Shown piece by piece: positions 2,797 through 15,328 of a DNA stretch of 35,409 nucleotides. Positions within the stretch are counted from its first letter, which is position 1. Each line of letters starts with the position of its first letter. The notes beneath the pieces were generated by a model, which saw only the letters and a program-made list of their open reading frames with translations, searched no databases and had not been told where the DNA came from. Source of the DNA: a virus. A program made the translations under genes and the position numbers. The stretch lies in the IMG/VR virus record IMGVR_UViG_3300034073_001278, positions 1 to 35,409 of that record, one strand, 5' to 3'.

Positions 2797-3416
2797 ACCT
2801 CGGCCCGCCATACAGCCGTGAAGAATCCGAGTTCCTTGAGCCCTTGGCGGGTGATCTGCCGCTAAAGGAAATCGTGCGGCTGTTTCAGAAACACGCTGCT
2901 GAGCAGGGATGGCCGCCGCGCAGTCACCGGAGCATCCAGCAACGGCTGATCCGGATGGGCCATGAGGTCCGGGTGACCACTGGTGACTGGGTGACGACTG
3001 GCGGTGCGGGTGAGATTCTCGGATGCCCTGGGACGAGGGTTGAAGCGTGGCTGCGGCGACCGAGCACCCGCGAGATTCTGCAGCCGGTATGGCGCGGCGC
3101 GTTTCGGTATATCAGCCGCCGGTCATGGCGGAGGTTGGCGAGGGAGAAACCGCAGGTGCTGGGTGGGTTCAGCGTTGATCGGTTGTTTGATCTGCTGGAG
3201 GATCGGGAGCTCGCTGAGCAGGTAGCTGCCCGGTATCCGCGGCCACGTGGAGATTGGCGGGTGCGTTGTGTGGAGACGGGCCAGACCTGGCCCAGTGCGG
3301 TGAAGGCTGCAGCAGAGCTGCACGTGAGTCAGGCGACGATCACCAGGGCGATGCGTTTGGCCAGGCCTGTCGCGGTGCTGGGGCTGCGGTTTGAGGCGTT
3401 GCGGGAGGTGGCTTGA
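2793..3416 (+). CDS. Putative DNA-binding protein with HTH and NUMOD1-like segments
   Basis: A 207-residue basic protein. The N-terminal third (YSREESEFLEPLAGDLPLKE) resembles a SANT/HTH segment in which residues decide whether to 'look up' a target. The C-terminal part contains VETGQTWPSAVKAAAELHVS followed by QATITRAMR and a closing GLRFE. That pattern fits NUMOD1, a small DNA-binding module common in phage and homing-endonuclease proteins. No nuclease motif is visible. ATG 2793 overlaps the helicase stop (ATGA) and the stop overlaps the VRR-NUC gene, so it belongs to the same operon. I infer a sequence-specific DNA-binding accessory protein; the target is unknown. Confidence 0.7.
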   Translation: MNLGPPYSREESEFLEPLAGDLPLKEIVRLFQKHAAEQGWPPRSHRSIQQRLIRMGHEVRVTTGDWVTTGGAGEILGCPGTRVEAWLRRPSTREILQPVWRGAFRYISRRSWRRLAREKPQVLGGFSVDRLFDLLEDRELAEQVAARYPRPRGDWRVRCVETGQTWPSAVKAAAELHVSQATITRAMRLARPVAVLGLRFEALREVA

Positions 3417-3823
3417 CTGCCGGGATGCCCAGCGAACACGAAACCCAGCAACGCATCCTTCTAGCCCACGGCTCCGGCCCGGTAAGGCTCTGGCGTAACA
3501 ACGTTGGGACCGGCTGGGCCGGCCAGGCCACCAGGGTTACCGCCGGGAACCTGCAGGCCATCGCCAACACCATCAGACCTGGTGACGTGGTGATCCGTGG
3601 CGGCCGGCCCCTGCATGCTGGGCTGTGCGTCGGCAGCTCCGACCTGATCGGTTACCGCCAGGTCAATGGCCTGGCCCAGTTCGTGGCGTTGGAGGTGAAG
3701 TCCGCCACGGGTCGCCCAACTGCAGAGCAGACCCGGTTTCTCAGTCACATCACTAGCGCTGGCGGTTGTGCTGCGGTGGTGCGCAGCGTTGATGATGCCT
3801 ATTCGGTTCTCCGCTATCCCTAG
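3413..3823 (+). CDS. VRR-NUC domain nuclease
   Basis: About 136 residues with the layout of a stand-alone phage VRR-NUC protein: an N-terminal SEHETQQRILL helix, then GLCVGSSDLIGY, FVALEVKSATGRPTAEQ, FL..I...GG and AAVVRSVDDAYSVL. The acidic SSD, the E-x-K pair (LEVK) and the Q of the EQ helix are the expected metal-binding residues of this PD-(D/E)XK subfamily. Such proteins cut branched or flap DNA and often accompany phage helicases, as here. TTG at 3413 overlaps the upstream stop; ATG at 3425 is an equally good start and removes only four residues. It is the last gene before the first copy of the repeated 30-bp element, so it probably ends the operon. Confidence 0.9.
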   Translation: MTAGMPSEHETQQRILLAHGSGPVRLWRNNVGTGWAGQATRVTAGNLQAIANTIRPGDVVIRGGRPLHAGLCVGSSDLIGYRQVNGLAQFVALEVKSATGRPTAEQTRFLSHITSAGGCAAVVRSVDDAYSVLRYP

Positions 3824-3848
3824 TAAACCGGAACCGCTACGGTTCAGG
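3819..3848 (+). promoter_or_regulatory. 30-bp repeated promoter/operator element, copy A (diverged)
   Basis: AAACCGGAACC lies at 3825-3835, followed by GCTACGG and TTCAGG at 3843-3848 where the other copies have TAGGRT. GAACCG-CTA-CGGTTC (3831-3845) forms a perfect inverted repeat here. The left GGTGC block of the other copies is missing. It sits between the VRR-NUC stop and the repressor-like gene. If the hexamer acts as a -10 box, transcription would begin near 3855, which fits translation from ATG 3877. Confidence 0.6.
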
Positions 3849-3876
3849 CATGGAACGGGAACACTCCGAGCAACGG

Positions 3877-4593
3877 ATGGATCGAGGCGTGCAGCAGCTG
3901 GCTGCAGCGGTGACGTATTGGCTCGCGCACAGCCTGAGCCAGGACAAGCTGGCGGCACTGCTGCACTGGGCGTACGGGGAGACGTCCGGGTTTGACGGCG
4001 GCACGTTCAGTCGGATCAAGAACGGGAAACAGGCCCGCGGCGCTGGCCTGCGGCACTTGGATGGACTGGCGGAAACCAACCGGGCGATCTGGACGTGGCA
4101 GACGCAGGGTGAGCGCGAGGCCATTAGGGAGTTTGGCCTGTACTCCGAGCACGGCGTACAGCCGGAATGGGTAGCTGACACGATCTGGCTGCCGAAGCCG
4201 TATGACGAGAGCAAGCCGCTGGACCTGGGAGATCTGGCCAACCTGGTGATGGGCCGGCTGGAGCTGCCGTACGTGGGCGGCAAGCTGACGCAGGGCCAGG
4301 CCCGGCGTGCCAACGATCGCCTGATTGACCTGCTGGATGATCTGGCGGCAGAGCATGGCTGGGGACCACGGGAAGCGCTGCGGGAGTTTCTCGCGGTGTA
4401 CCCAGCAGCCAGCACCAACACCCGCCAGGCAAGGCTGAAGGAGCTGCTGATGGGCGAGCCACTCAGCCACAAGGAGCTGGAGTCGGAGCTGGCAGCGCTG
4501 GCGGAGATGATCCGCCAGGTGCGTGGTCTGGAGACGTTTACTCCGGCGCAGCTGCAGGCTGAGCTGTTGACTGATCGCCGTTTGCGGTCCTGA
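3877..4593 (+). CDS. Putative Cro/C1-type (XRE-like) transcriptional regulator
   Basis: About 238 residues. Near the N-terminus LSQDKLAALLHWAYGE, then a short insert, then DGGTFSRIKNGKQ matches the 'LSQ..LA..l......iS.ie.Gk' form of XRE-type helix-turn-helix domains. The remaining ~180 residues are mostly helical and charged, with no peptidase motif seen, so a LexA/C1-type autocleaving repressor is not supported. ATG 3850 is possible, but it would lie at the predicted transcription start of element A; ATG 3877 leaves a leader of about 22 bases and is preferred. The gene stands alone with its own copy of the repeated element, as expected for an autoregulated repressor or early regulator. Whether it is the lysogeny repressor is inference. 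Confidence 0.6.
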   Translation: MDRGVQQLAAAVTYWLAHSLSQDKLAALLHWAYGETSGFDGGTFSRIKNGKQARGAGLRHLDGLAETNRAIWTWQTQGEREAIREFGLYSEHGVQPEWVADTIWLPKPYDESKPLDLGDLANLVMGRLELPYVGGKLTQGQARRANDRLIDLLDDLAAEHGWGPREALREFLAVYPAASTNTRQARLKELLMGEPLSHKELESELAALAEMIRQVRGLETFTPAQLQAELLTDRRLRS

Positions 4594-4720
4594 TGACCCG
4601 GTAGACGAAGCGGTCAACGACGTAGACGTCGATCTCTTGAAAGTCGGCGTCTGGGACGTGGCAGAGCATGCGCCAGAGGCGGTCGGCAGCGGAGTGGTCG
4701 GAGCAGTGGGCTTGGATCAT
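4538..4720 (-). CDS. Small hypothetical protein (60 aa)
   Basis: A 60-residue leftward frame with ATG at 4720. The sequence LWRMLCHVPDADFQEIDVYV followed by VDRFVYRVIRTANGD looks like a real beta/alpha segment rather than random antisense, and most of it lies outside the neighbouring gene. It overlaps the 3' end of the rightward regulator gene by 56 bases, tail to tail. No Shine-Dalgarno sequence is obvious. It resembles no family I recognise. Its start region is divergent from the RecT-like gene across a 136-base gap holding element B. Confidence is moderate because of the overlap and small size. Confidence 0.4.
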   Translation of the reverse strand: MIQAHCSDHSAADRLWRMLCHVPDADFQEIDVYVVDRFVYRVIRTANGDQSTAQPAAAPE

Positions 4721-4803
4721 CGTTTCTTATCGGTCGGCTGGTTATAGGAGTCTTAAGCCGAGACCTGTCGGGCTATGCAGGAATGGCATTTCACAGCCTG
4801 ATG

Positions 4804-4833
4804 GGTGCGAAACCGGAACCTTAGCGCTAGGAT
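4804..4833 (+). promoter_or_regulatory. 30-bp repeated promoter/operator element, copy B
   Basis: GGTGCGA (4804-4810), ACCGGAACC (4812-4820) and TAGGAT (4828-4833) align without gaps to copies C and D. TAGGAT fits a TAnnnT -10 hexamer, which would put the transcription start near 4840 and give a 17-base leader to ATG 4857 of the RecT-like gene. The rest of 4721-4803 shows no other clear signal apart from TATAGG at 4744-4749. Confidence 0.7.
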
Positions 4834-4856
4834 GACGGAATCCACCGCCTGATGCC

Positions 4857-5684
4857 ATGGCGATTCCACAAAGCTCAGCGTTGACCGCGCCGAGCGTCCC
4901 ACCAGCTCTCAGCCTGCAGGTCCAGTCCGTTGACGACCTAGCCCGCCTTGCGCGGGTGTTTGCCGCGTCTGGTCTGTTCGGCCGGAATGGCAACCAAGAG
5001 ACGCAGGTTGCCGAGTGCGCTATTCGCCTGATGGCCGGCATGGAAGCAGGGTTCTCCCCGTTTGCATCCGCCACTGGCGTGCACATCATCAACGGCCGGC
5101 CGGCGTTCTCCAGCAACCTGCTGGCCCAGGCGGTGCGCCGTCATCCGGTGTACGACTACCGGGTGCTGGAGAAGTCAGCCAAGGCCTGCAAGATCCGGTT
5201 CCTCGCCCATGGTGAGGTGCTCGGCACTGAAGAGTTCACCATCGAGATGGCTGAACGCGCCGGCCTACTGAAGAACCCCACGTGGAAGTCGTATCCCGAG
5301 GCCATGCTGTTTAGCCGTGCGCTGACGGCTGGCATGCGTACGCACTGCCCTGACGCGCTGGGTGGTCATACGGCGTACACGCCTGATGAGATCGGCGGTG
5401 AGGTGGTGCCGGTAACGGTGACCGAATCGCCGGCATCAGAGCCAGCTGATCCGGTTGAGCAGGCCCAGCAGGTCTGTGATGCCGCCGGCCTGACTGTTGA
5501 TGGCGTCATGGCGTTCTGCCTGCTGGTCAGCAACGGGACGATCGCCGCATTGGCGCAGCTGCCTAGGCCGACGCTTGACCGGATCATTCAACAGGGGATC
5601 AGCGCCGAGACGGTGGCGAAGTGCAACGGCACACCAGAGCCGACCGAAGATCCCGACGACCTACCAGCTGCCTGGTCTGTTTGA
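4857..5684 (+). CDS. RecT-like single-strand annealing recombination protein
   Basis: 275 residues. The order of motifs fits a RecT-like phage family: LARVFAASGLF, then QVAECAIRLMAGMEAGFSPF, GVHIINGRPAFSSNLLAQAV, a Cys/Arg beta section, FTIEMAERAGLLKNPTWKSY, PEAMLFSRALTAGMRTHCPD and an ending YTPDEIG. These are the 'kI..G.e.G..p..a...i.vi.GkP..s..l' and 'W..yp..ml..Ra....r..~pd' signatures of annealing proteins that pair complementary single strands. The acidic, Pro/Gln-rich C-terminal 90 residues are less conserved. An SSB gene follows within 33 bases, the usual partner arrangement. No RecE-like exonuclease is adjacent, though the PD-(D/E)XK and VRR-NUC genes upstream could supply nuclease activity. 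It has its own upstream element B and no clear Shine-Dalgarno site. Confidence 0.8.
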   Translation: MAIPQSSALTAPSVPPALSLQVQSVDDLARLARVFAASGLFGRNGNQETQVAECAIRLMAGMEAGFSPFASATGVHIINGRPAFSSNLLAQAVRRHPVYDYRVLEKSAKACKIRFLAHGEVLGTEEFTIEMAERAGLLKNPTWKSYPEAMLFSRALTAGMRTHCPDALGGHTAYTPDEIGGEVVPVTVTESPASEPADPVEQAQQVCDAAGLTVDGVMAFCLLVSNGTIAALAQLPRPTLDRIIQQGISAETVAKCNGTPEPTEDPDDLPAAWSV

Positions 5685-5692
5685 CCACGTGA

Positions 5693-5722
5693 GCTGCACT
5701 ACCGGAACCTGACCCCAGTGAA
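5693..5722 (+). promoter_or_regulatory. Degenerate half copy of the repeated element (copy E)
   Basis: TGCACTACCGGAACCTGA (5695-5712) matches the left part of the element closely, including the TGCA block and ACCGGAACCT. The right half reads CCCCAGTG, so no -10-like hexamer is present, and the ssb GTG start falls inside the window. It may be a binding half site or a decayed promoter rather than a working promoter. Confidence 0.4.
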
Positions 5723-6164
5723 CGAACTCTTTACTCAACTCATTCAGTGCAACCAGTGGCGGTTCATCGGTCGCCTTGGCGCCGATCCCGAACTGCGCTG
5801 CTTTCAATCCGGCGCCAGCGTGTGCAACGCCCGGCTGCTGGTGAACAAACCCGGCCAGAAACGGGACGACGGCCAGAAACCGTATTCGTTCAAGCTCGAA
5901 CTGTGGAACGACAAGGCGCAGGAGTTTGTCGATGCCGCCGGCAAAGGTGACCTGATCGACGTGGAGGGCCGCGTCAAGACGGAGACGTGGGACGACCGGA
6001 ACACCGGTGAGAAACGCCACGGCTTGGTGATGACGGTTGAAGCATGGGAGGTGCTGGCCAAGCCTGGCCAACACCATCAGCAGCAGGCCACCACACCTGC
6101 ACCGGCACCAGCCAAGACGCAGCCGGACTGGACCAGCTCTGATGACTTCGGGGTACCGTTCTGA
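5718..6164 (+). CDS. ssb: Single-stranded DNA-binding protein
   Basis: 148 residues with a clear OB fold: WRFIGRLGADPELRCFQSGA, then VCNARLLVNKP, SFKLELWNDKAQEFVDAAGK, GDLIDVEGRVKTETWDD and LVMTVEAWEVL. A disordered Gln/Pro/Ala-rich linker follows, ending in the acidic tip SSDDFGVPF, the SSB protein-interaction peptide (usually DDDIPF). The start is GTG 5718, with the normal SSB N-terminus directly after it. It lies behind the RecT-like gene and its stop overlaps the next start (TGATG). It should coat single-stranded phage DNA and recruit partners during replication and annealing. Confidence 0.95.
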   Translation: MNELFTQLIQCNQWRFIGRLGADPELRCFQSGASVCNARLLVNKPGQKRDDGQKPYSFKLELWNDKAQEFVDAAGKGDLIDVEGRVKTETWDDRNTGEKRHGLVMTVEAWEVLAKPGQHHQQQATTPAPAPAKTQPDWTSSDDFGVPF

Positions 6165-6442
6165 TGGACACCATTACGCAAGTCCGCCAGCAGTTCGACC
6201 ACCTGCTGGCTCGTATCGAGTCTGACCGTCAGGCGTTGGATGCTGAACAGGCAGCCGTCGCTCGTGCCACGGAAGCCCTGCACGAATCACCAGCGCTGCG
6301 GGCAGCACTGGCCCAAGGGCAGGAGATCATGCGCGGCCGGGTGGTGGCGTTGATTGACGCCCAGCTGTCGCTGCTGGAGCGCAGCGGCACCAATGCGTTG
6401 GTGTTAGGCGCCCTGCGCCGTCAGGTGCTGGAGGTGGACTGA
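6164..6442 (+). CDS. Small coiled-coil hypothetical protein
   Basis: 92 residues, nearly all predicted helix: ITQVRQQFDHLLARIESDRQ, a run rich in Ala, Glu and Gln, and LLERSGTNALVLGALRRQV near the end. Heptad-like spacing suggests a short coiled coil and probably oligomer formation. Its ATG overlaps the ssb stop by one base and its stop touches the next ATG, so it is translated as part of the ssb operon. I do not recognise the family; a small accessory factor of the replication module is only a guess from position. Confidence 0.75.
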   Translation: MDTITQVRQQFDHLLARIESDRQALDAEQAAVARATEALHESPALRAALAQGQEIMRGRVVALIDAQLSLLERSGTNALVLGALRRQVLEVD

Positions 6443-6639
6443 TGTTTCCACCACTCGCTGAACAGTCCTGTCTGACGTGCCGGTATTTCCGGCCATCGTC
6501 AGCGTTTGACGTGGCCAGGTGGCCCGTGGGGAACTGCCACCGCCAGCCGCCGCAGCTCGGGCCACGTGGTGAGCAGTGGCCATCCGTTGATGCCGCTGAC
6601 TGGTGTGGGGAATGGGTGATGCGGGAGGTGGGACAGTGA
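6442..6639 (+). CDS. Small cysteine-rich (zinc-binding type) protein
   Basis: 65 residues with a CLTCRYF knuckle (CxxC) at residues 10-13, a GNCHR at about 30 and a WCGEW near the end. This set of four cysteines plus histidine and aromatic residues is common in small phage proteins and is likely to bind zinc. The protein sits between the coiled-coil gene and the SNF2-like helicase, overlapping both by one to four bases. Function unknown; nucleic-acid or protein binding is plausible. Confidence 0.8.
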   Translation: MFPPLAEQSCLTCRYFRPSSAFDVARWPVGNCHRQPPQLGPRGEQWPSVDAADWCGEWVMREVGQ

Positions 6640-8012
6640 CCAGCACCCTGCAGCGTTACAGACAGTTCATTGCATCAAAGGGCACTGCCGCCGAATCCCA
6701 CGGGTTTCCCGTCCAGTCGAAGTGGGATCTGTTCCCCCACCAGCAGGCCACCTTGCAATTCGCATGCGAGAAAGGCCGATCGGCTGCGTTCCTCGACACT
6801 GGCCTAGGCAAGTCTCGGGTCGAGGCCGCTGCTGCTGCCGAGTTCGCCGCGGCCAGCGGTCGCCCGTCGCTGATCCTCACCCCATTGGCGGTCGCCCGTC
6901 AGATGGTGCGCGAGTGCGCAGCAGTTGGCATTGATGCCCGCATCGTCCGCGAGCAGGCCGACGTTGGCCTTGGCGTCAATATCGCCAACTACGAACGGCT
7001 GCCGAAGCTAGATCCATCGGTGTTCGGTGGCGTGGTGCTTGATGAGAGCAGCATCCTGAAGTCCTTTACCGGGCCGACCAAACGGATGCTGTGCGAGGCA
7101 TTCAGCGAGACGCCCTACCGGTTGGCGGCCACCGCTACGCCAGCGCCGAATGATCACATGGAGCTGGGCAACCACTCCGAGTTTCTCGGGCACCTGGGCA
7201 GCATGGAGATGCTGTGCCGCTGGTTCATCAATGACACCAGCACCGCTAGCCAAGACTGGCGGCTGAAGGGGCACGCGCAGGCTGATTTCTGGCGGTGGGT
7301 CAGCAGCTGGAGCAGAACCGCGACGCTGCCGTCTGATCTGGGTGGTGATGACGATGGATTCATCCTGCCGCCGCTGAACTACGAGCTCCACACCATCAGC
7401 GCTGACATCACCCAAGACGTGCCGGATGGGATGCTGTTCAGAATCCCCGATGGCAGTGCCACCACCATCCATCGTGAGAAGCGGCTGACGATGGAGGATC
7501 GCGTCGCCCGCGCTGCAGAGCTGGCCAACACCACCGATGGCCCAGTGATCGTGTGGTGCGAGACGAATGACGAATCATCGGCATTGGCGGCATCCATCCC
7601 TGGTGCCATCGAGGTGCATGGCTCCATGCCGTTGGACGAGAAGGTGGCCGCGTTGGATGCCTTCACGTTTGGTGAGCGCCGGGTGATCGTGTCGAAGCCG
7701 AAGCTGGCAGGCCTAGGCCTGAACTGGCAGCACGCCAGCACGGTGATCTTTGCCAGCGTCAGCCACAGCTACGAGCAGCACTACCAGGCCGTGCGTCGGG
7801 CATGGCGGTTTGGTCAAACCAAGCCTGTCACCTGCCACGTGATCATCAGCGATACAGAGACAGCGATTTGGAACAACGTCCAGCGAAAGGCTGCTGATCA
7901 CGCCCGAATGAAGCGTGCAATGGCTGAAGCCATGAATGGCTACCAGCAGCAGGCCAGCAAGAAGGCGTACACGCGCACTGCGTCCGTATCACTCCCCGCA
8001 TTCCTTCAATGA
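6636..8012 (+). CDS. SNF2-like SF2 helicase/translocase
   Basis: About 458 residues from GTG 6636. The frame is open further upstream (to 6603), but GTG 6636 has GGGAGGTGG just before it and overlaps the previous stop (GTGA), so it is the best start. Motifs: Q/FPHQ near residue 33, Walker A DTGLGKS (54-60), a DEAD-box variant DESS (136-139), TATPAPND (166-173) and motif VI QAVRRAWRFGQ near the C-terminus. The DESS box and 'ATPAPND.MELGNH' are typical of phage SNF2-family helicases encoded next to DNA methyltransferases, as found here. It probably moves along double-stranded DNA in replication or repair. This is the second SF2 enzyme of the arm; the two are not close relatives. Confidence 0.9.
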   Translation: MTSTLQRYRQFIASKGTAAESHGFPVQSKWDLFPHQQATLQFACEKGRSAAFLDTGLGKSRVEAAAAAEFAAASGRPSLILTPLAVARQMVRECAAVGIDARIVREQADVGLGVNIANYERLPKLDPSVFGGVVLDESSILKSFTGPTKRMLCEAFSETPYRLAATATPAPNDHMELGNHSEFLGHLGSMEMLCRWFINDTSTASQDWRLKGHAQADFWRWVSSWSRTATLPSDLGGDDDGFILPPLNYELHTISADITQDVPDGMLFRIPDGSATTIHREKRLTMEDRVARAAELANTTDGPVIVWCETNDESSALAASIPGAIEVHGSMPLDEKVAALDAFTFGERRVIVSKPKLAGLGLNWQHASTVIFASVSHSYEQHYQAVRRAWRFGQTKPVTCHVIISDTETAIWNNVQRKAADHARMKRAMAEAMNGYQQQASKKAYTRTASVSLPAFLQ

Positions 8013-8887
8013 AACCCGACTATCAAGGTGAAAAGTGGGCCGTTTATGTGGCCGATTGCATTGAGATCATGAACGGCATGCCTGAGGGCATTGTTGACCT
8101 AGCAGTGTTTTCCCCACCGTTTTCTGATCTTTTCGTATATTCAGACTCAGAACGTGACATGGGAAACTGCGGCAGCCATGCCGAATTCATGGAGCACTAC
8201 GCGTACTTTGCGCGAGCACTGTTCCGCGCCATGAAACCAGGCCGCATCGCCTGCGTTCACTGCTCAGACCTGCCAGCCCGCAAGAGCAAGGATGGATTCA
8301 TTGGGCTACATGACTTTGGTGGTGACCTGATCCGCGCTCACCAGGATGCCGGCTGGGTTTACCACGCTCGCTGCACGATCTGGAAAGATCCTGTGATCGA
8401 AATGCAGCGGACCAAGGCGCTGGGCCTGCTATATAAGCAGCTGAAGAAAGACAGCAGCCGCAGCAGGGTAGGCATGCCGGACTACATGCTGTTCTTTCGC
8501 AAGGATCAGGACAATCCCGATCCGATCACCCATGACCCTGATGATCTGCCGGTGAGCATGTGGCAGGAGCTGGCCAGCCCGGTATGGATGCGCGTGAACC
8601 AGACCAACGTGCTGAACGGCCGGCAGGCCCGTGGTGATCAGGATGAGCGGCACATTTGCCCGCTGCAGCTGGACGTGATCGAGCGCTGCATCACGCTGTA
8701 CAGCAACCCTGGGGACGTGGTGATTGATCCGTTCAACGGCATTGGCAGCACCGGCTACCAGGCCGTGAAGATGGGCCGGAAGTATGTGGGAGTTGAGCTC
8801 AAGCCGGAGTACGCCCGCCAGGCTGCGAAGTTTCTAGAGCAGGCCGAGGGCAGCGCTGCGTCACTGTTCGACCTGGAGGCCGCCTGA
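8009..8887 (+). CDS. Site-specific DNA methyltransferase (N6-adenine or N4-cytosine type)
   Basis: 292 residues. The catalytic motif IV is VFSPPFSDLF (residues 33-42), an SPPF variant of the (D/N/S)PP(Y/F) box. Motif I, DPFNGIGSTG, begins near residue 240 and is followed by GRKYVGVELKPEYA. Motif IV before motif I is the beta-class order. The middle contains WKDPVIEMQRTKALG and MPDYMLFFRKD, also typical. It overlaps the helicase stop by four bases, a pairing often seen in phages. No specificity subunit or restriction enzyme lies next to it, so it is best read as an orphan methylase that protects or marks phage DNA. The recognition sequence cannot be read from the protein. Confidence 0.93.
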   Translation: MKPDYQGEKWAVYVADCIEIMNGMPEGIVDLAVFSPPFSDLFVYSDSERDMGNCGSHAEFMEHYAYFARALFRAMKPGRIACVHCSDLPARKSKDGFIGLHDFGGDLIRAHQDAGWVYHARCTIWKDPVIEMQRTKALGLLYKQLKKDSSRSRVGMPDYMLFFRKDQDNPDPITHDPDDLPVSMWQELASPVWMRVNQTNVLNGRQARGDQDERHICPLQLDVIERCITLYSNPGDVVIDPFNGIGSTGYQAVKMGRKYVGVELKPEYARQAAKFLEQAEGSAASLFDLEAA

Positions 8888-8889
8888 CC

Positions 8890-9033
8890 ATGGAAACCCG
8901 CCGTTTAACCATCCTGCTGACGCTGCCCGAGGTGGAGGCGTTACGCCGCCAACTGCGGCCTGAGGAATCAATGAACGACCTGTTACGCAGAATTGTCCAC
9001 GATCGTATTCATGCTGGGAGGACTGAGCGATGA
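8890..9033 (+). CDS. Small ribbon-helix-helix-like protein (47 aa)
   Basis: ATG 8890 starts two bases after the methyltransferase stop. The 47-residue product begins METRRLTILLTLPEVEALRR and continues with a loop and MNDLLRRIVHDRI. A short beta strand (RRLTILL), a helix, a turn and a second helix is the ribbon-helix-helix plan of small DNA-binding proteins. Its TGA overlaps the ATG of the next gene. It could be an early repressor or DNA-packing factor. Confidence 0.6.
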   Translation: METRRLTILLTLPEVEALRRQLRPEESMNDLLRRIVHDRIHAGRTER

Positions 9034-9368
9034 GCGCTGACTACGCCCTGGCCCAGCCCGAGCCACAGGAGCCGACTATTGAGGAGATTGACGATCTGGC
9101 CTCAGAGCTGCTGGACGGCGACCGAGCAAGCACCCGTGACTTCGCCCGCGCCGTCCTCGCCCGCTGGGGCCGCCCCGCCATCGAGCCGGTGCCGGTGAGT
9201 GAGCGGTTGCCGGGGCCGGAGGAGGGGAGGTGTTGGTGGTGGAACGATATGAGAAACCATTGGGACCTTCTTGACGCTCGGTACAGAACACGTGCCGAGC
9301 TTTGGAGTTTCACAGCCTGGCTCCCCTATTACGCCCTGCCGGTGCCGCAGCAACAGGAGGTGGAGTGA
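9030..9368 (+). CDS. DUF551-like protein
   Basis: 112 residues. The second half has PVPVSERLPGPEEGRCWWWN, a spacer, and FTAWLPYYALPVP. This 'PvserLP......vlv.n......W....THWlPlp.lP.p' pattern is DUF551, found in many phage and prophage genes with unknown function. The first half is acidic (EEIDDLASELLDGD) with a FARAVLARWG helix. It overlaps its neighbours at both ends (ATGA and TGATG), so it belongs to the same transcription unit. Confidence 0.8.
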   Translation: MSADYALAQPEPQEPTIEEIDDLASELLDGDRASTRDFARAVLARWGRPAIEPVPVSERLPGPEEGRCWWWNDMRNHWDLLDARYRTRAELWSFTAWLPYYALPVPQQQEVE

Positions 9369-9598
9369 TGAGCCCGTATATCTATCTACTACTCAGCGTA
9401 TACCTACCTAGTGATCAACGAGTCAGTCGTTGTGCCGTAAAAAGAGACGTAAACACAATCCCAAGTGGCTGGGACGCCATTGATTACTGGGCAGAGCCTG
9501 AGCACAAAGCTTATTTCCTCTCCTTGCTACCTGAGCACATAACAGAAGATCAGCCAGTATTAGTTAATGTCGAGCGAATTCAATGGATCGAGCCATGA
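9368..9598 (+). CDS. Hypothetical protein (76 aa), AT-richer
   Basis: ATG 9368 follows an ACAGGAGGTGGAG Shine-Dalgarno region and overlaps the previous stop (TGATG); the frame is open further upstream but that part is antisense-like. The product begins MSPYIYLLLSVYLPS and later has WDAIDYWAEPEHKAYFLSLL. Codons such as tat, tta and gta are used far more than in neighbouring genes, suggesting recent acquisition. No family is recognised. The stop overlaps the next ATG by one to four bases. Confidence 0.6.
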   Translation: MSPYIYLLLSVYLPSDQRVSRCAVKRDVNTIPSGWDAIDYWAEPEHKAYFLSLLPEHITEDQPVLVNVERIQWIEP

Positions 9599-9864
9599 CC
9601 ACCCCAACCCCGCCCCTCTCACCAGCAGCTCAGGCTGTGCTGGATGCTGCGATGCAGTACGAGATCAACCCGGAGTGTTACTCACGGGAAATTGCCGTCG
9701 CCGTATTGCGTGCGGCTGCGGATCAGGCAATTCCTCTCACCAAGACGCCTTGGGGTACAAGTCTGATTCCGGTTCTGACTTCACAAGAAAGCCGCGATCG
9801 GATTCTCGCCATCGCCGCCGAGCTGGAGCAGGCGGCAAATATCAACACTACGGAGGCACCATGA
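9595..9864 (+). CDS. Small hypothetical protein (89 aa)
   Basis: ATG 9595 overlaps the previous TGA; ATG 9583 is possible but less well placed. The protein begins with a Pro/Thr-rich tail, then SPAAQAVLDAAMQYEI and AVAVLRAAADQAIPL, ending in a helix with RDRILAIAAELEQA. I recall similar small proteins from picocyanobacterial phages, always with this AVL(D/A)AA opening, but with no known function. It is coupled to the following gene by an ATGA overlap. Confidence 0.75.
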   Translation: MTTPTPPLSPAAQAVLDAAMQYEINPECYSREIAVAVLRAAADQAIPLTKTPWGTSLIPVLTSQESRDRILAIAAELEQAANINTTEAP

Positions 9865-10199
9865 CTGACCAACACCGCGCCACGCCTGAGCAGTGGGAGC
9901 TGCTGAAACGCCAAGGCCAAACACTCGGCAGCGCCGAATCTATTGCCCTCCTCGAACTCCGCGACCGCATCGCAGCACTGGAGGCATCAGCAGGTATTGG
10001 CCAGCCCGTCACGCCAGCCAATACTTCAGCCCCCGCCGATTCGCTGCTGGAGCGGGTTCAGGGTGCGATCAGTGATGTGGAGTTTCCACATGGCACCGAC
10101 GAAGCCCGCGCCGCGATCCGTGAGGTGGCCAGGTGGTTGCGATCAGAACTGGTGAGTCGTGCGGTGGCTGATCGACTGGAGCAGGAAGCCAACCACTAA
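9861..10199 (+). CDS. Hypothetical protein with ATPEQW opening and C-terminal ARAAIREVA segment
   Basis: 112 residues from ATG 9861, which overlaps the upstream stop; the frame continues upstream to 9567 but that stretch is antisense-like and out of keeping. The protein opens MTDQHRATPEQWELLKRQ, has ELRDRIAALEAS (short coiled coil) and closes with EARAAIREVARWLRSELVS. This modular layout recurs in small genes of Synechococcus/Cyanobium and their phages, which supports the host inference. Function unknown. It is the last gene before element C. Confidence 0.8.
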   Translation: MTDQHRATPEQWELLKRQGQTLGSAESIALLELRDRIAALEASAGIGQPVTPANTSAPADSLLERVQGAISDVEFPHGTDEARAAIREVARWLRSELVSRAVADRLEQEANH

Positions 10200-10200
10200 C

Positions 10201-10230
10201 GGTGCAAAACCGGAACCTATGCGGTAGGGT
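10201..10230 (+). promoter_or_regulatory. 30-bp repeated promoter/operator element, copy C
   Basis: GGTGCAAAACCGGAACCTAT (10201-10220) then GCGG and TAGGGT (10225-10230). It matches copies B and D over the whole 30 bases. ACCGG-N7-GCGGT forms an imperfect inverted repeat. It begins directly after the stop of the preceding gene and precedes the small membrane-protein gene. Confidence 0.7.
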
Positions 10231-10296
10231 ATGGAGGTCAGCAGGCCGAGCGCGCCGCTGACCACCTATTCCGCCCGGCACTGGCCGGTTCTGTTC

Positions 10297-10659
10297 ATGT
10301 CCATCACCACCATTGCCGGCACTGCCGGCCGCATCACTGGTACGGCTGCCAAAGGCCTGATCTGGGCTTACGACACCATCGACTGGGCTGAAGTTCGCGC
10401 GATCGTGCTGCACGGCCTACAGGTTCTGATCGTTCTGGCCCTGCTGGCCGGCAGGTACAGCCGCCGCGCATGGGACACGGTGCCAGTCCTGAGTGAACGG
10501 CTCGGCCGCTGGTACGCCGGCCTGATTGCACCAGCACCAGCGCCGACCTACAAGCGCGCCGAGCTGGAGCAGCTGACCTGCCGTCAGCTCATGGCCATCA
10601 CCGGCACTCGCAGGAAACTCGCCAAGCGGCACCTCGTGGAGCTGGCGCTAGCGGCCTGA
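10297..10659 (+). CDS. Small membrane-associated hypothetical protein
   Basis: About 120 residues from ATG 10297. A hydrophobic stretch VLHGLQVLIVLALLAG forms one membrane segment, flanked by AGRITGTAAKGLIWAYD and a basic RYSRRAWD. The C-terminus (QLMAITGTRRKLAKRHLVEL) looks like a small helical SAP/Rho-N-type or HTH-like module. ATG 10231 gives a 142-residue version, but that codon directly follows the -10-like hexamer of element C, so it would lie upstream of the predicted transcription start; 10297 is preferred, though 10231 remains possible. Having its own copy of the element suggests early expression. Function unknown. Confidence 0.65.
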   Translation: MSITTIAGTAGRITGTAAKGLIWAYDTIDWAEVRAIVLHGLQVLIVLALLAGRYSRRAWDTVPVLSERLGRWYAGLIAPAPAPTYKRAELEQLTCRQLMAITGTRRKLAKRHLVELALAA

Positions 10660-10679
10660 TCACATACAACCGACACACC

Positions 10680-10913
10680 ATGAAAGACCACCTCCAGCCC
10701 GGTGACATCTGGCGGCACCCCTGTATGGGGCCGCTGTACGTCACCGATGAAGATCGGGACGCATATCCCGGCACGTTGAAGTGCTACTGGGGAATGGGCG
10801 GCAACCCTAATGCGCCGTTCACGTTCCGCCACCCGAACAACACAACCAACCTGACGCTGGTGCAGCGACTGGGTGAACAGGACGAGAACGGCGAATGGCA
10901 CCTCAAGCGATGA
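10680..10913 (+). CDS. Hypothetical protein (77 aa)
   Basis: ATG 10680 follows a 20-base gap. The sequence MKDHLQPGDIWRHPCMGPLY and later KCYWGMGGNPNAPFTFR looks like a small beta-rich fold of the kind many phages carry; the PGDIW opening is reminiscent of small SH3-like proteins. No catalytic motif is visible. The stop overlaps the following small gene (ATGA). Real coding is likely because the frame is well formed and coupled. Confidence 0.7.
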   Translation: MKDHLQPGDIWRHPCMGPLYVTDEDRDAYPGTLKCYWGMGGNPNAPFTFRHPNNTTNLTLVQRLGEQDENGEWHLKR

Positions 10914-11056
10914 TCCCGCGCCTGTATCACGTCCAGCTCATCACTGGTTCCGTGGAGCTCTACGCCATCACTCAGGCCCAGGCCATCCGCACCGCACTGG
11001 AGCTGGCCGGCCCTGGTGCCACGGTGCTCAGGGTGTGGCGAGAAGGTGACTGGTAG
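10910..11056 (+). CDS. Small hypothetical protein (48 aa)
   Basis: ATG 10910 overlaps the previous TGA. The product reads MIPRLYHVQLITGSVELYAI, then TQAQAIRTALELAGPGA and ends VWREGDW. A beta hairpin followed by an AQAI..A.ELAGPGA helix is typical of small picocyanobacterial/phage proteins I recall, without known function. Its TAG abuts the stop of the opposing leftward gene. Confidence 0.65.
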   Translation: MIPRLYHVQLITGSVELYAITQAQAIRTALELAGPGATVLRVWREGDW

Positions 11057-11060
11057 TCAC
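11046..11060. terminator. Short inverted repeat between convergent genes
   Basis: GTGACT-GGT-AGTCAC is a perfect 6-bp inverted repeat covering the two facing stop codons. It is short and lacks a T-run, so at best it is a weak bidirectional terminator. Confidence 0.25.
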
Positions 11061-11263
11061 ACGCCCGGCTCGTCCACTTCAGACGGGCCACGTCGAGGCT
11101 GCACGCCACCACCAGGGAGCTGCAGCCCGCGGCGTTCGCACTCGTCAATGAACGCCGCCGCGGCCGTGTGTCGGTCGCTGTGCTCCACCTGCACGCCGCC
11201 ACCTTGGATCAGCCAGACCGGTTGGCCGTTCCTGATCACCAGCTCAGCGGTGGGGAGATTCAT
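11057..11263 (-). CDS. Small hypothetical protein (68 aa)
   Basis: A leftward frame with ATG 11263. It begins MNLPTAELVIRNGQPVWLIQ, continues HTAAAAFIDECERRGLQLPG and ends in a Pro/Gly-rich tail. A beta hairpin plus a helix with 'IDECERRGL' looks like genuine protein, with typical local codon use. It is a lone leftward gene between the rightward early arm and the integrase. A CCATACCCTGA motif lies immediately before its start (11264-11277). No family is recognised. Confidence 0.65.
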   Translation of the reverse strand: MNLPTAELVIRNGQPVWLIQGGGVQVEHSDRHTAAAAFIDECERRGLQLPGGGVQPRRGPSEVDEPGV

Positions 11264-11277
11264 GAGTCAGGGTATGG
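11264..11277 (-). promoter_or_regulatory. CCATACCCTGA start-proximal motif, copy 1
   Basis: Reading leftward, CCATACCCTGACTC ends directly at the ATG of the 68-residue protein. The same 11-mer at the same distance precedes the head-tail joining gene (30293-30306), and a one-mismatch copy precedes the gene at 20821. TACCCT could be a TAnnnT -10 box very close to the start codon. Confidence 0.3.
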
Positions 11278-11534
11278 ACAGGGGATGTACCTTCCCCGAG
11301 ACTCCCTGCCGTTACTGGGCTCTCACTACGACATCCGGGCCATTGATGAGGATTTGTACTTGGCGGTGCTCGCCTGTCGTAGAGCGGAAAATGGTTGCGC
11401 TGCAGGCGATCTGACCAGTACGCCAACTCCAGCGTTAGGGACTGCAGGGGACTACGAAGGCCCATAATTTCGCGGAATATGTACCGGCCGTCCATCGGTG
11501 CATTGATCCCAAATTCTGTGCGTCGTATTCGCCC
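11264..11534. other. Non-coding gap upstream of the integrase
   Basis: No confident gene, tRNA or terminator is visible. Short frames exist (for example ATG 11262, about 50 residues, Cys-rich) but none looks convincing. By position this gap could hold the integrase promoter and perhaps the phage attachment site; I could not identify an att core without a host sequence. Confidence 0.4.
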
Positions 11535-12530
11535 ATGGCCAGCGTGAACGTCCATCGCGACCGCCTGTACCTGCTGGCCAAGGTGCCGCGCCGCGACGGC
11601 AGCCCAGGCCTGCAGCAGTGCCGGATTGCCCTGCGGCTTGACAACACGCCGGTGAATCGCCGCACTGCCGCCAAGCAGCTGCAGACCTTGGAGCAGCAGC
11701 TGGCGACCGGAACGTTCGACTGGGCGTACTGGAACGATCAGGAGCAGGGGATTACCTGGCGGGATGCCATCGCCAGGTTGCATCGTGCTCGGGTGGTATT
11801 GGGCCGCACGTCGGAGACGACCTGGGAGATCAACTATATGGGCCGGCTGCGGCAGATCCCGCCAGGGGCAGCCGTGACCACTGAATCAATGGCGCAGGCG
11901 CTGCAGCGTTACGACCGCTCGACGTGCTCGTACAAAGAGCTCTGGTATCTGCTGCGGCATATCGCCAAGCTGACAGGCGTGCCATTTCCTGAGCTGCCAG
12001 TGCCGACCTATGGCCAGGCCCAGCTGGTGGCAGTGCCCACCGATGCGGAGATCATCAGCTGGGTCGAGGCGTCAGGTGCCGCGGCCTGGTATTTCGGGAT
12101 GATGGCCACCTATGGGCTGAGGCCGCACGAAGTGGAAGGCTCGCGGCTGATCGAGAAGGATTACTGCCAAATATCAGACAGCACTAAAACCGGATTCCGC
12201 ACGGTGGTGCCGGTGCCCCGCGAATGGGTTGAGCGGTTCAGGCTGCGCGATCGACGGCTACGGACTGGTGGTGTGCTGGGTGAACGACCTGATGCCGTGT
12301 CGAAGTGGCTGCATAAGGAGCTTCGCCGGCTGGGTTTGCCGTGGCGGCCTTATGCGCTCAGGCATGCGTACGCCGGCCGGCTGTGGAAGCAAGGCGGCAG
12401 CCGGCTGGATATTTACACGGCTGCCAGGCTGATGGGCCACACGCCGCAGCAGCACGCCAAGACGTACCGTGCCCACATTCAGCCGCATGCGGTGGCAGAG
12501 GCGGCAGAGAGGGCGTTGAACGATGGATGA
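11535..12530 (+). CDS. int: Tyrosine site-specific integrase
   Basis: 331 residues. The N-terminal third (MASVNVHRDRLYLLAKVPRR) is a DNA-binding arm, the middle a core-binding helical domain, and the C-terminal half the catalytic domain. Catalytic residues visible: Arg196 in TYGLRPHEVEG, Lys218 in STKTGFRTV, Arg276 in PYALRHAYAG, His302 in LMGHTPQQHAKTY and nucleophile Tyr311. The first His of the box II HxxR motif is Tyr273 here, a seldom-seen change. The enzyme should integrate and, with an excisionase, excise the phage genome. An excisionase-like HTH gene converges on it. The protein is slightly shorter than lambda integrase (356 residues). Presence of this gene shows a temperate lifestyle. 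Confidence 0.93.
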   Translation: MASVNVHRDRLYLLAKVPRRDGSPGLQQCRIALRLDNTPVNRRTAAKQLQTLEQQLATGTFDWAYWNDQEQGITWRDAIARLHRARVVLGRTSETTWEINYMGRLRQIPPGAAVTTESMAQALQRYDRSTCSYKELWYLLRHIAKLTGVPFPELPVPTYGQAQLVAVPTDAEIISWVEASGAAAWYFGMMATYGLRPHEVEGSRLIEKDYCQISDSTKTGFRTVVPVPREWVERFRLRDRRLRTGGVLGERPDAVSKWLHKELRRLGLPWRPYALRHAYAGRLWKQGGSRLDIYTAARLMGHTPQQHAKTYRAHIQPHAVAEAAERALNDG

Positions 12531-12586
12531 GCTGATGACAGGGAGAGAAGCGCTGCTTGCTCGGCTGGCCAGCTACAACGAAGAAG

Positions 12587-12826
12587 TCAGCTCAGGCCGG
12601 CATGTTCCACCACCAGGCCTGGCACCACCGCCTGCGGATTTATCCGCACCATGCGCCGCTGAGCGCCAACCGGCGCCAGGTCAATCAACTCACGGCCCCA
12701 CCGCCAGCGGCTCTTGCGGTTCGCATCGGCCTCGTGGATCAGCCGCTTGATATGCCGCTCACTGCAGCCGAGGGCCTCGGCAGCTTCGGCCACGGTGAGC
12801 AACAGTCTGGGGCTGCACTTCCGCAT
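12587..12826 (-). CDS. Excisionase-like helix-turn-helix protein
   Basis: About 79 residues from ATG 12826, which has GAGGGG upstream and overlaps the previous stop (TGATG); GTG 12832 is the alternative. LLTVAEAAEALGCSERHIKR is a clear MerR/excisionase-type helix-turn-helix, followed by a basic loop and a wing with RRMVRINPQAV. Such proteins serve as excisionases or AlpA-like regulators in temperate phages, and the position directly facing the integrase fits that. It is the last gene of the leftward early operon. Confidence 0.8.
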   Translation of the reverse strand: MRKCSPRLLLTVAEAAEALGCSERHIKRLIHEADANRKSRWRWGRELIDLAPVGAQRRMVRINPQAVVPGLVVEHAGLS

Positions 12827-13128
12827 CAGCACCCCTCCCTGCCGAAGAGGGAGCAGTCACGGGCAAACCCTGGACCTTCCAGCGCAGGATCTGGGAACCC
12901 TAGCCCGCACTCGCCGTGATGCCAGTGCATGCACCGCTCGCAGCTTGGATCGTTTGGTCCCGGTGGTGGCCGGTAACCATCAGGCAAAGCGTCGCGGTAG
13001 ATCTTGCCGATCCGTATCTGGCGGATCGTTTCACGGCTGACGCCATACACGTGCCCTAGAGCACGGTGCGTTTCAGGTGATGCAATGATCGCCGCGATTT
13101 GCTCAGCGGTGAACTTCCGGATGGTCAT
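12826..13128 (-). CDS. HTH protein with cysteine-rich C-terminus
   Basis: 100 residues. The first half (MTIRKFTAEQIAAIIAS, then HVYGVSRETIRQIRIGK) is a helix-turn-helix, similar to the HTH of site-specific endonuclease accessory proteins. The second half has CERCMHWHHGECGLGFPDP and a final Cys, a probable zinc-binding cluster. ATG 13128 overlaps the deaminase stop (ATGA). It is likely a small DNA-binding regulator; its target is unknown. Confidence 0.75.
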   Translation of the reverse strand: MTIRKFTAEQIAAIIASPETHRALGHVYGVSRETIRQIRIGKIYRDALPDGYRPPPGPNDPSCERCMHWHHGECGLGFPDPALEGPGFARDCSLFGREGC

Positions 13129-13637
13129 CCCTTGCTGCCCGTAACGGTGACGTCCCCGTTGTATCTGCCACTGACGGCGTAGGACCGCAGGGGCCGTTCA
13201 GCCATCAGGTGGAATACAACTTGGCCGATCTTCATGCCAGGCCAGAGCCCTACTGGCCAGAGCTGGCGGGAGTTATGGAGCTCCAGCGTGAGCACGCTGC
13301 CATGCCAGCCGGGATCGCAGTATCCGGCCATCAGATGCTCGAGGCCTTCACGTGCGCGGCTGGACTTCAGCATGAATTGAGCCGCTACATCATCGGGCAG
13401 GTTGAACACCTCCACCGTCTGGGCCAGGCAGAACTGACCCGGCACCAGTTCGTATGGGTTGGCTTCAGTGTGACCGGCCAGCGGATACGGCACCAGCTCA
13501 CGGCTGACGGCTGATTCAATCAGCAGCGTGTCACCAAGGCGTACGTCGAGCGATGCTGGATTGATCAGCTCATCGGCGTAACCGTGGATCATGCCGCCTT
13601 CACAGCGGCTGCGGATCTGAAAATCTGCGAGAATCAC
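13125..13637 (-). CDS. dcd: dCTP deaminase / dUTPase-like protein
   Basis: About 170 residues from GTG 13637. This start overlaps the upstream TGA (GTGA) and gives the usual Dcd opening (M)ILADFQIRSRCEGG; ATG 13688 upstream would overlap the preceding gene by 55 bases and is less likely. Family signatures: INPASLDVRLG, GQFCLAQTVEVFNLP, MLKSSRAREGLE, CDPGWHGSVLTLELHN and SGRYNG. The SSxxR motif and the Glu in LTLELHN match the catalytic Ser, Arg and Glu of bacterial dCTP deaminase. It makes dUTP (and perhaps dUMP) from dCTP for thymidylate supply. In a GC-rich phage it may instead tune dCTP/dTTP balance. It is embedded in an operon of small regulatory genes. Confidence 0.88.
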   Translation of the reverse strand: MILADFQIRSRCEGGMIHGYADELINPASLDVRLGDTLLIESAVSRELVPYPLAGHTEANPYELVPGQFCLAQTVEVFNLPDDVAAQFMLKSSRAREGLEHLMAGYCDPGWHGSVLTLELHNSRQLWPVGLWPGMKIGQVVFHLMAERPLRSYAVSGRYNGDVTVTGSKG

Positions 13638-13831
13638 GGGCGGGAACGGATGACGGAACTGGAGAGGTGCAGCTGACAGATGCGCCATTCAATGCCGAAC
13701 GCATCAACGATCAGGTAGTGGGGCCACGCTGAACCGCCGTGGCCAAAGGCTGCAGTGACCCGTGCCGGCTGCTGCGGATGGCCAGCGACGTACACCACGT
13801 CGCCAACCTTGAACCGCCAGGGTGATTTCAT
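13634..13831 (-). CDS. Small SH3-like hypothetical protein (65 aa)
   Basis: 65 residues. FKVGDVVYVAGHPQQPARVT followed by LIVDAFGIEWRICQLHL is a compact beta-barrel pattern (VGD.V...G....V.......Y.V......W....L) like SH3/KOW-type small proteins. It is coupled on both sides: TGATG with the upstream small membrane peptide and GTGA with the deaminase gene. Function unknown. Confidence 0.7.
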   Translation of the reverse strand: MKSPWRFKVGDVVYVAGHPQQPARVTAAFGHGGSAWPHYLIVDAFGIEWRICQLHLSSSVIRSRP

Positions 13832-13923
13832 TGGCGCACCTCCAGCTGCTGCAGACGGGCTTCGCGCTCAAGGGTGACGACTGCACCAACCAGCCCGAGA
13901 ACTGATAGCACCACGGCGATCAT
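13828..13923 (-). CDS. Tiny membrane peptide (31 aa)
   Basis: ATG 13923 gives MIAVVLSVLGLVGAVVTLER and a charged tail, i.e. one transmembrane segment. The frame is open much further upstream (to 14226) with basic residues before the ATG, so the start is uncertain. The stop overlaps the next ATG, which supports translation. Function unknown; small membrane peptides are common in phage early operons. Confidence 0.45.
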   Translation of the reverse strand: MIAVVLSVLGLVGAVVTLEREARLQQLEVRQ

Positions 13924-14027
13924 GGTTCTGCGACGGGCAGCGGCCTGGGCAGCAATGACAGCCCTGCGGCGTTGCGCCTTGTAAAGCGCCAGTGAAACAA
14001 TAGGCTGACGATTACAGGGAAGAACAT
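13920..14027 (-). CDS. Possible tiny hydrophobic peptide (35 aa)
   Basis: ATG 14027 opens MFFPVIVSLLFHWRF, a short hydrophobic stretch, and ends at a stop overlapping the ATG at 13923 (ATGA). It overlaps the end of the preceding 53-residue gene by 16 bases. The coupling pattern is suggestive but the protein has no recognisable features, so this is a weak call. Confidence 0.25.
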   Translation of the reverse strand: MFFPVIVSLLFHWRFTRRNAAGLSLLPRPLPVAEP

Positions 14028-14173
14028 GGCCGCTCGTGGATTGAGACGATAACCGCCTGCGGGTGGCGGATACTGAAGCATTGTCGAATCGAATCTTTGG
14101 TCCAGCCGTTTCCGGCGATCCACTCAAGTTCATAGCGTTGATCGTTCTTGATGTAGGTGATGAAGTAAGCCAT
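14012..14173 (-). CDS. Small hypothetical protein (53 aa)
   Basis: ATG 14173 begins three bases after the upstream stop. The product starts MAYFITYIKNDQRYELEWIA and contains GWTKDSIRQCFSIRHPQAVI, a plausible small alpha/beta protein. Position within a continuous leftward chain and sensible amino-acid content support it. No family is recognised. Confidence 0.6.
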   Translation of the reverse strand: MAYFITYIKNDQRYELEWIAGNGWTKDSIRQCFSIRHPQAVIVSIHERPCSSL

Positions 14174-14176
14174 TGG

Positions 14177-14485
14177 TCAGAACACGTCAGTTGCTGCCTG
14201 CAGATGACGCAGGACGGCTTGAACATCGGTTTTCAGGCTGTTGATCAGGTCGGCTGGCACGGCATGGCCTGAATCCCAGGCGTTATCTGCAACGGCAATA
14301 GCGGTAACCCGCGCCGCATCGATCAGGCCCACCAGTAGCGGCATGAGCGGCTGGTTACGTGCGCCGCAGTCAGGCAGGCGTATCAGGTGATCGACGCGCT
14401 TGGGCACCGCTTGACGAGCAGCCTGAAGAACCAGGTCAGACAGCGCCGTTTCGCACTCCAAGGGGGTGAGGTTGTGGGTTTGCAT
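14177..14485 (-). CDS. Hypothetical protein (102 aa)
   Basis: 102 residues, mostly helical: MQTHNLTPLECETALSDLVL, later RVDHLIRLPDCGARNQPLMP, LLVGLIDAARVTAIAVAD and LINSLKTDVQAVLRHLQA. It has no clear motif. It lies between the Gp157-like gene (5-base gap) and the 53-residue gene (3-base gap), in the same leftward operon. Function unknown. Confidence 0.7.
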   Translation of the reverse strand: MQTHNLTPLECETALSDLVLQAARQAVPKRVDHLIRLPDCGARNQPLMPLLVGLIDAARVTAIAVADNAWDSGHAVPADLINSLKTDVQAVLRHLQAATDVF

Positions 14486-14490
14486 GGCGG

Positions 14491-15033
14491 CTAGGCAATC
14501 TTCCAGCTGCGGCGCTCGACCAGTGCGACGCCTTCAATCTGCTCACCAGCCTTCAGCGCATTGGCCAATGCGGTCTTGTCTGGTGAGTACGTGGTGCGTG
14601 CGCGTTGGAAACGATCCGGCAGCACGAACACGTCAGCGGTCACCTCGACAGCGGACACCTTGCGGCTGGTCAGCTTGTGCTCTGGCAGATCCCACTTTGT
14701 CGCATCTGGGTCGATGCGCTGGAGCACAGCGATGAGGCGATCTTGCAGGGTGTCAGCCTGCCGTTCATCAGCAGCGGCCAGTTCAGCCAATGCTGCAGCC
14801 CGAGCTTTGCGGGCATCGCGGCGTGCGCGGAGTGAGTCAATGACCCAGCACCAAGCGTCGGCCTTGGCCTCAACCTGACGGCGGTTGTCAAACTCAGCAG
14901 AAATCAGCTGCTCCAGCGTTGCAGTGGCTGCTGCCACCACTGCCGGGTCATCACTGAACAGGTCGGTGGCGGCGGTATCGATCTGCTGCTGCAGCCGGAG
15001 CGCGTCACCGGTGAGGTCGTAGAGGGTGCTCAT
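14491..15033 (-). CDS. Siphovirus Gp157-like protein
   Basis: About 180 residues from ATG 15033, which overlaps the preceding stop (ATGA); a longer version from 15075 adds an unlikely N-terminus. It opens MSTLYDLTGDALRLQQQID, has a long helical section with EAKADAWCWVIDSLRARRDA and LQDRLIAVLQRIDPDATKWD, then a beta part (HKLTSRKVSAVEVTADVFVL) and ends with LKAGEQIEGVALVERRSW. This plan is that of siphovirus Gp157-family proteins from temperate phages. The family was linked to phage resistance in streptococci, but its molecular role is unclear; proximity to recombination genes is common. Confidence 0.8.
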   Translation of the reverse strand: MSTLYDLTGDALRLQQQIDTAATDLFSDDPAVVAAATATLEQLISAEFDNRRQVEAKADAWCWVIDSLRARRDARKARAAALAELAAADERQADTLQDRLIAVLQRIDPDATKWDLPEHKLTSRKVSAVEVTADVFVLPDRFQRARTTYSPDKTALANALKAGEQIEGVALVERRSWKIA

Positions 15034-15239
15034 CGGTCGGCCTCCACGCGCAGCTGAACCCACAGGGCATCCCATGCGGTGGCCTTAGGGCCAGTGGTAA
15101 AGCGGTTGAAGGAGGCGGCCTCTTGGCTGGCCTGCAGCCACATGATCGGGGCTCCGATCAGCAAGAGCAGGATCAGCACGCAGGCATATGCGGCGGCTGC
15201 AGGGGCAAAAGCCCTAAGCAGATCTTTGAAATCGTCCAT
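15030..15239 (-). CDS. Small membrane protein (69 aa)
   Basis: ATG 15239 gives MDDFKDLLRAFAPAAAAYAC then VLILLLLIGAPIMWLQAS, one strong membrane segment, and a soluble tail FNRFTTGPKATAWDALWVQL. The 'FNR.TG....TWDA.wv.LRv' tail recurs in small phage membrane proteins. A TTG 27 bases upstream is a weaker start and would be close to the predicted transcription start of element D. It is the first gene of the leftward early operon. Function unknown. Confidence 0.75.
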   Translation of the reverse strand: MDDFKDLLRAFAPAAAAYACVLILLLLIGAPIMWLQASQEAASFNRFTTGPKATAWDALWVQLRVEADR

Positions 15240-15266
15240 GGCGTCGCGAGTGCTGCGAACCGTCAA

Positions 15267-15296
15267 ACTCTACCGGTTAGGTTCCGGTTCTGCACC
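15267..15296 (-). promoter_or_regulatory. 30-bp repeated promoter/operator element, copy D
   Basis: Reading leftward: GGTGCAGAACCGGAACCTAA, CCGG, TAGAGT (15272-15267). ACCGG-N7-CCGGT is a perfect inverted repeat. A -10 box at TAGAGT would start transcription near 15260 and leave about 20 bases before ATG 15239, matching the leader in copy B. It lies 32 bases from the start of the divergent sigma-factor gene, so it may also affect that gene. Confidence 0.7.
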
Positions 15297-15328
15297 TATG
15301 CTGGGCGCAATCCTTCACACTCGCACCG

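Follow-up and report, generated by a model that had tools for sequence, protein, structure and literature searches.

A 30-bp element as a candidate phage-specific early promoter in S-LBS1-like freshwater cyanosiphoviruses

A repeated 30-bp element is best read, from its sequence and distribution, as a phage-specific promoter of early DNA-metabolism operons in S-LBS1-like freshwater cyanosiphoviruses. It was studied in a window, meaning the whole stretch of DNA that was analysed (35,409 nucleotides), which is a 35.4-kb virus contig from IMG/VR with a GC content of 61%. We assign a probability of about 0.5 to the reading as a whole, in which a phage-encoded sigma factor would read this early promoter class and an XRE-like protein would act as a repressor in some members. 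The nearest cultured relative of the window was Synechococcus phage S-LBS1 (MG271909), with a sigma factor 79% identical and a common early gene order. The closest relative of all was L129, whose XRE-like protein was 99.6% identical. L129 has an additional element, 5.9 kb ahead of its XRE-like gene, in a stretch absent from the window, so the left end of the window contig is probably cut.

The initial annotation had placed full copies of the 30-mer at 4804-4833 (+), 10201-10230 (+) and 15296-15267 (-), and these coordinates were exact. The first (copy B; position weight matrix (PWM) score 42.1) is the putative promoter of the recT operon. Its predicted +1 is at 4840 and the recT ATG at 4857, where the gene for a RecT-like annealing protein begins (4857-5684, +; phrog_561, E 1.6e-45). 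The second (copy C; PWM 46.6) follows a methylase cassette, is kept in many relatives and has its predicted +1 at 10237; a small membrane-protein gene lies downstream, with its likely ATG at 10294. The third (copy D; PWM 42.9, predicted +1 at 15260) faces leftwards, ahead of an operon with a Gam/gp157-like gene (14491-15075, -; PF05565, E 1.1e-22), and relatives have the element at the same place. The 11-mer AAACCGGAACC was indeed found three times in the window, at 3825, 4810 and 10207. Among gapless triples in the window, the best had a minimum pairwise identity of 24/30, and 100 order-3 Markov simulations gave at most 21. When up to three mismatches were allowed, the core pattern GGTGCNNAACCGGAACC(N4)CGNTANNAT matched three sites in the window and had matches in 31 of 42 related records; the reversed-pattern control gave no match in either.

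Scanning the relatives with the PWM revealed one to five copies per record, with scores from 20 to 48, and the highest score in 1.09 Mb of reversed sequence was 9.9. For the conservation analysis, 34 non-redundant copies were used, with pairwise differences above 20% across 85 bp. The conserved block was exactly 30 bp long, ending at the edges of the 30-mer. Its last six positions read TANNRT: TA and the final T were fixed or nearly so, the third base was free, the fourth was mostly G and the fifth A or G, in agreement with the TAnnnT -10 box suggested at first. CGG directly precedes this box. If the last T is taken as -7, the predicted start falls on position 37, a purine in 33 of the 34 copies. 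No TTGACA-like -35 box was found at a distance of 17 +/- 1; GGTGCR occupies its place, as the beginning of a 17-bp block, GGTGCnnAWSSGGWWCC, from -36 to -20. Nine genomes had a scored recT copy, and in every one the start codon of recT was 23 or 24 bases past the element. The -10 box, the purine at the predicted start and the conserved 30-bp block together argue for a promoter and not only an operator.

The relatives carry the element before the same operons as the window, namely those of recT and Gam/gp157, and before the helicase and the gene after the methylase cassette (small membrane protein). This fits the early-operon regulon that had been proposed from the window; whether relatives lack copies at these genes, which would have spoken against it, was checked, and they do not. 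No copy was found before the terminase genes or the structural (late) operon of S-LBS1.

The phage sigma factor (15329-16276, +) is encoded divergently from copy D. It had matches to PF04542 and PF04539, and a Pfam domain search gave no region 4 match above the cut-off. The -10 box of its gene, TATGCT (15297-15302, +), abuts copy D, and TANNNT occupied the corresponding position in each of 23 clade genomes. Each of the 12 long genomes with the element encoded the sigma factor, the shorter element-bearing contigs without it being fragments, and it was the sole recognised DNA-binding protein common to all of them; an XRE-like protein was found in five of the 12 and a protein with three helix-turn-helix (HTH) parts in four. 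In the sigma factor tree, the element-bearing genomes formed one clade (support 90/94). Branching outside it were G016, G025 and G041, which have no element, and the altered G017-19. A by-eye alignment was made with E. coli sigma70, in which R584, E585, R588 and Q589 of region 4.2 are residues that read TTGACA. In most phage sigma factors of the clade these positions were T, R, E/D and V/S/A/T, and this altered region 4.2 was common to the clade. Clade sigma factors should therefore not read TTGACA. Because of this altered region, the presence in 12 of 12 genomes and the single clade, the phage sigma factor is named as the likely reader of GGTGC, and it is probably the reader of the promoter class. 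The co-occurrence is not independent proof, since sigma factor and element share one ancestry. Against this assignment, the outgroup phages G017-19 still have GGTGC with a different region 4.2 helix, and a host factor, present in every case, may be the reader instead.

Other candidate readers and links were set aside. The triple-HTH protein (2793-3416) was rejected as a universal reader, being present in only four of the 12 long genomes. A link between position 2 of the -35 box (GGTGC versus GATGC/GCTGC) and the end of region 4.2 was suggestive; the four genomes concerned are one clade and count as one event. An equivalent promoter family was sought among the repeats of the outgroup genomes G016, G025 and G041, and none was found. 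The triple-HTH protein itself is 207 aa long, with three possible DNA-binding parts by eye (homeodomain-like, winged and C-terminal helix-turn-helix) and a weak Pfam HTH match; S-LBS1 and several relatives also have it. A protein of 102 aa (14180-14485, -) without a family match, encoded beside the Gam/gp157 gene, was present in 12 of 12 long element-bearing genomes and in S-LBS1.

S-LBS1 has GGTGC and a normal -10 box at the same three places (sigma/Gam, recT and helicase/primase), with a different inner block. The distance from GGTGC to the -10 box is 18 to 20 bases there, a one-base play that RNA polymerase would tolerate if it touches both boxes. As S-LBS1 keeps only GGTGC and the -10 box, the outer boxes have a wider distribution than the inner block. 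The more distant G017 retained GGTGC...TAGGAT with yet another inner block.

Promoter recognition could also be divided differently: host RNA polymerase, helped by a phage or host activator on the 17-bp block, might serve the element, and the phage sigma factor other, probably late, promoters. Class II activation and the MotA-dependent middle promoters of T4 would be the models for this. This is a possible explanation, to which we give limited credence. The block is not a palindrome and is longer than the stretch that region 4 of a sigma factor normally reads. GG recurs in the element at positions 1, 12 and 23, a period of 11 bases or one turn of the helix. These promoters serve early genes. 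The block is also conserved without a -10 box between recT and ssb, where the window has the 17-bp module GCTGCACTACCGGAACC (5693-5709, +). A half copy had been proposed at 5693-5722; its first 17 bases are kept in relatives, but the 30-mer score of the site, which has no -10 box, was at noise level. About 14 records, the XRE-less G005 included, conserve the module as GGCTGCAYAACCGGWWCCTAACCC. Its persistence without a -10 box suggests that a protein other than the sigma factor binds at least part of the 17-bp block. A scan with the module revealed the recT-ssb site as the sole recurrent intergenic site, and a genome-wide array of promoter-less sites was rejected. What counts against an activator is that all carriers have no recognised phage DNA-binding protein in common but the sigma factor. 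Furthermore, S-CBS1 and KBS-S-2A, two other sigma-encoding Synechococcus phages, had the bipartite GGTGC/-10 pattern no more often than chance predicts. This argues against a general host promoter type, although these two phages infect marine strains.

The XRE-like regulator gene (3850-4593, +) provides a second candidate DNA-binding protein. Its structure model (mean pLDDT 87) was nearest, over residues 4-90, to the helix-turn-helix domains of XRE, POU and SaPI Stl proteins, with Z scores of 5-6 only, and Foldseek gave no match below E 0.001. The supposed diverged promoter copy at 3819-3848 (copy A) turned out to be a palindrome instead, GGAACCGCTACGGTTC, at 3830-3845 (+), ending four bases before the XRE-like ATG. 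A palindrome of the pattern GGAACCG-CTA-CGGTTC precedes the ATG in eight of eight genomes with an XRE-like gene at 54% identity or more, and in G022 its 9-bp arms are perfect; it was not found in genomes without the gene. The palindrome is probably an autoregulatory operator of the XRE-like gene. It shares with the promoter copies the half-site GGAACC and the spacing to GGT (GGAACC-N5-GGTA in the latter), which makes binding of the XRE-like protein to both plausible. A separate inverted repeat, ATGC-N7-GCAT (about 4765-4800), lies shortly before the recT promoter, in the interval that separates copy B from the XRE-like gene; it is also present in G001, G017-19 and G020, all of which have an XRE-like gene.

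The common half-site and spacing are also what favours reading the element chiefly as an operator of the XRE-like protein, with an ordinary host promoter beside it, which we consider improbable. The XRE-like gene is patchily distributed over the sigma factor tree. In G003, G005 and G029-G031 it is absent, a VRR-NUC gene abuts the recT promoter, and the element is complete. Since GGWWCC persists in these XRE-less phages, something other than the XRE-like protein must maintain it there, and an operator of this protein alone was rejected. S-LBS1, likewise without the gene, retains GGTGC, and the promoter copies have no palindrome. The inverted repeat ACCGG-N7-NCGGT, taken for an operator in the initial annotation, was not constant in the promoter copies (the right arm was CGCT in most recT copies), and it is weak as an operator inside them. 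Both the sigma factor and the XRE-like protein had been put forward as readers of the element; it tracks the former and persists where the gene of the latter is missing. The promoter sites are thus independent of the repressor gene, and the XRE-like protein is best read as an added repressor layer in some members.

G033 (L269) and G034 (L270) kept the first 24 bases of the element with the -10 box replaced, possibly a cassette boundary inside the element, and no close relative of this sigma factor was found in either. That the element is a linker for recombination between gene cassettes, as such a boundary and the position of copies at cassette ends might suggest, is very improbable, as the -10 variation, the fixed distance to the start codon, the purine at +1 and the orientation all follow transcription.

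If the phage-specific, sigma-read promoter class is real, infection could proceed as follows. Host polymerase could make the sigma factor first, from the ordinary -10 box opposite copy D. RNA polymerase with the phage sigma factor would then read GGTGC as a -35 box, using the altered region 4.2, and TANNRT by means of region 2, and the inner GGWWCC would be the site of a further DNA-binding protein. The XRE-like protein would regulate its own gene through the palindromic copy; on the promoters it would cover -25 to -12 and could, as a lysogeny repressor, turn off the sigma gene along with the early promoters. A stricter form, which we regard as unlikely, is a three-part promoter read by the phage sigma factor (GGTGC as -35, GGWWCC as spacer box, CGG-TANNRT as -10) whose spacer box is the operator of the lysogeny repressor. 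One repressor would then silence the sigma gene as well as all early promoters, and mutants escaping the repressor would lose the promoter.

A tyrosine integrase (11535-12530, +; phrog_1) and an adjoining excisionase-like gene with a weak match (12587-12832, -) suggest a temperate phage. A search through RecT in GTDB genomes gave no cyanobacterial prophage relative, only two distant actinobacterial matches. For S-LBS1, the published account, as excerpted, reports an integrase and no evidence of integration (PMC6157547).

Parts of this arrangement have parallels in known systems. SPO1 and T4 late promoters depend on phage-encoded sigma factors and form classes confined to the phage. Here too there is a phage-encoded sigma factor and a promoter class confined to the phage, but the sigma factor is cyanobacterial group-2-like, the genes are early and not late, and the spacer holds an extra conserved block. 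MotA-dependent middle promoters of T4 have a good -10 box, lack the standard -35 box and carry a regulator box near -30. This likeness is one of architecture only, a box near -30 in place of the -35 and a good -10, whereas the box sequence differs. As in CI, Stl and cluster A operator sets, an HTH regulator (of modest Z) has a putative operator at its own gene in eight of eight genomes, but the promoter sites here do not depend on the repressor gene. In cluster A mycobacteriophages, one repressor likewise acts on many similar asymmetric sites, the stoperators, some of them inside operons without a promoter (PMC9283540, PMC6550527), comparable with the recT-ssb site. In contrast, there is one promoter-less site per genome here and no genome-wide array, and genomes that lack the repressor gene retain the sites. 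Compared with the window, S-LBS1 has GGTGC and the -10 box before the same operons, lacks the XRE-like gene and has a diverged inner block. In the excerpted S-LBS1 paper, promoters were predicted with PePPER only and a shared motif is not described (PMC6157547).

Lysogeny and the timing of gene expression are little studied in freshwater Synechococcus phages. With a promoter class, a sigma factor and a repressor candidate, and with a cultured member, their transcription programme becomes directly testable. In metagenomes, the element is also a signature by which these phages and their early genes can be recognised.

Two minor observations concern possible structured sequences. Rfam gave no match within the window. 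The predicted copy C transcript starts with a hairpin (10236-10263, +), for which covariation was seen: among nine relatives, both partners had changed in four of the ten pairs. A second group of relatives has a different hairpin at the same place, and the structure is perhaps end-protecting or regulatory. At the genome end of S-LBS1 (L216; 34264-34641), a stretch of about 120 bases that contains many CCTAACC/GGTTAGG units occurs twice, 254 bases apart.
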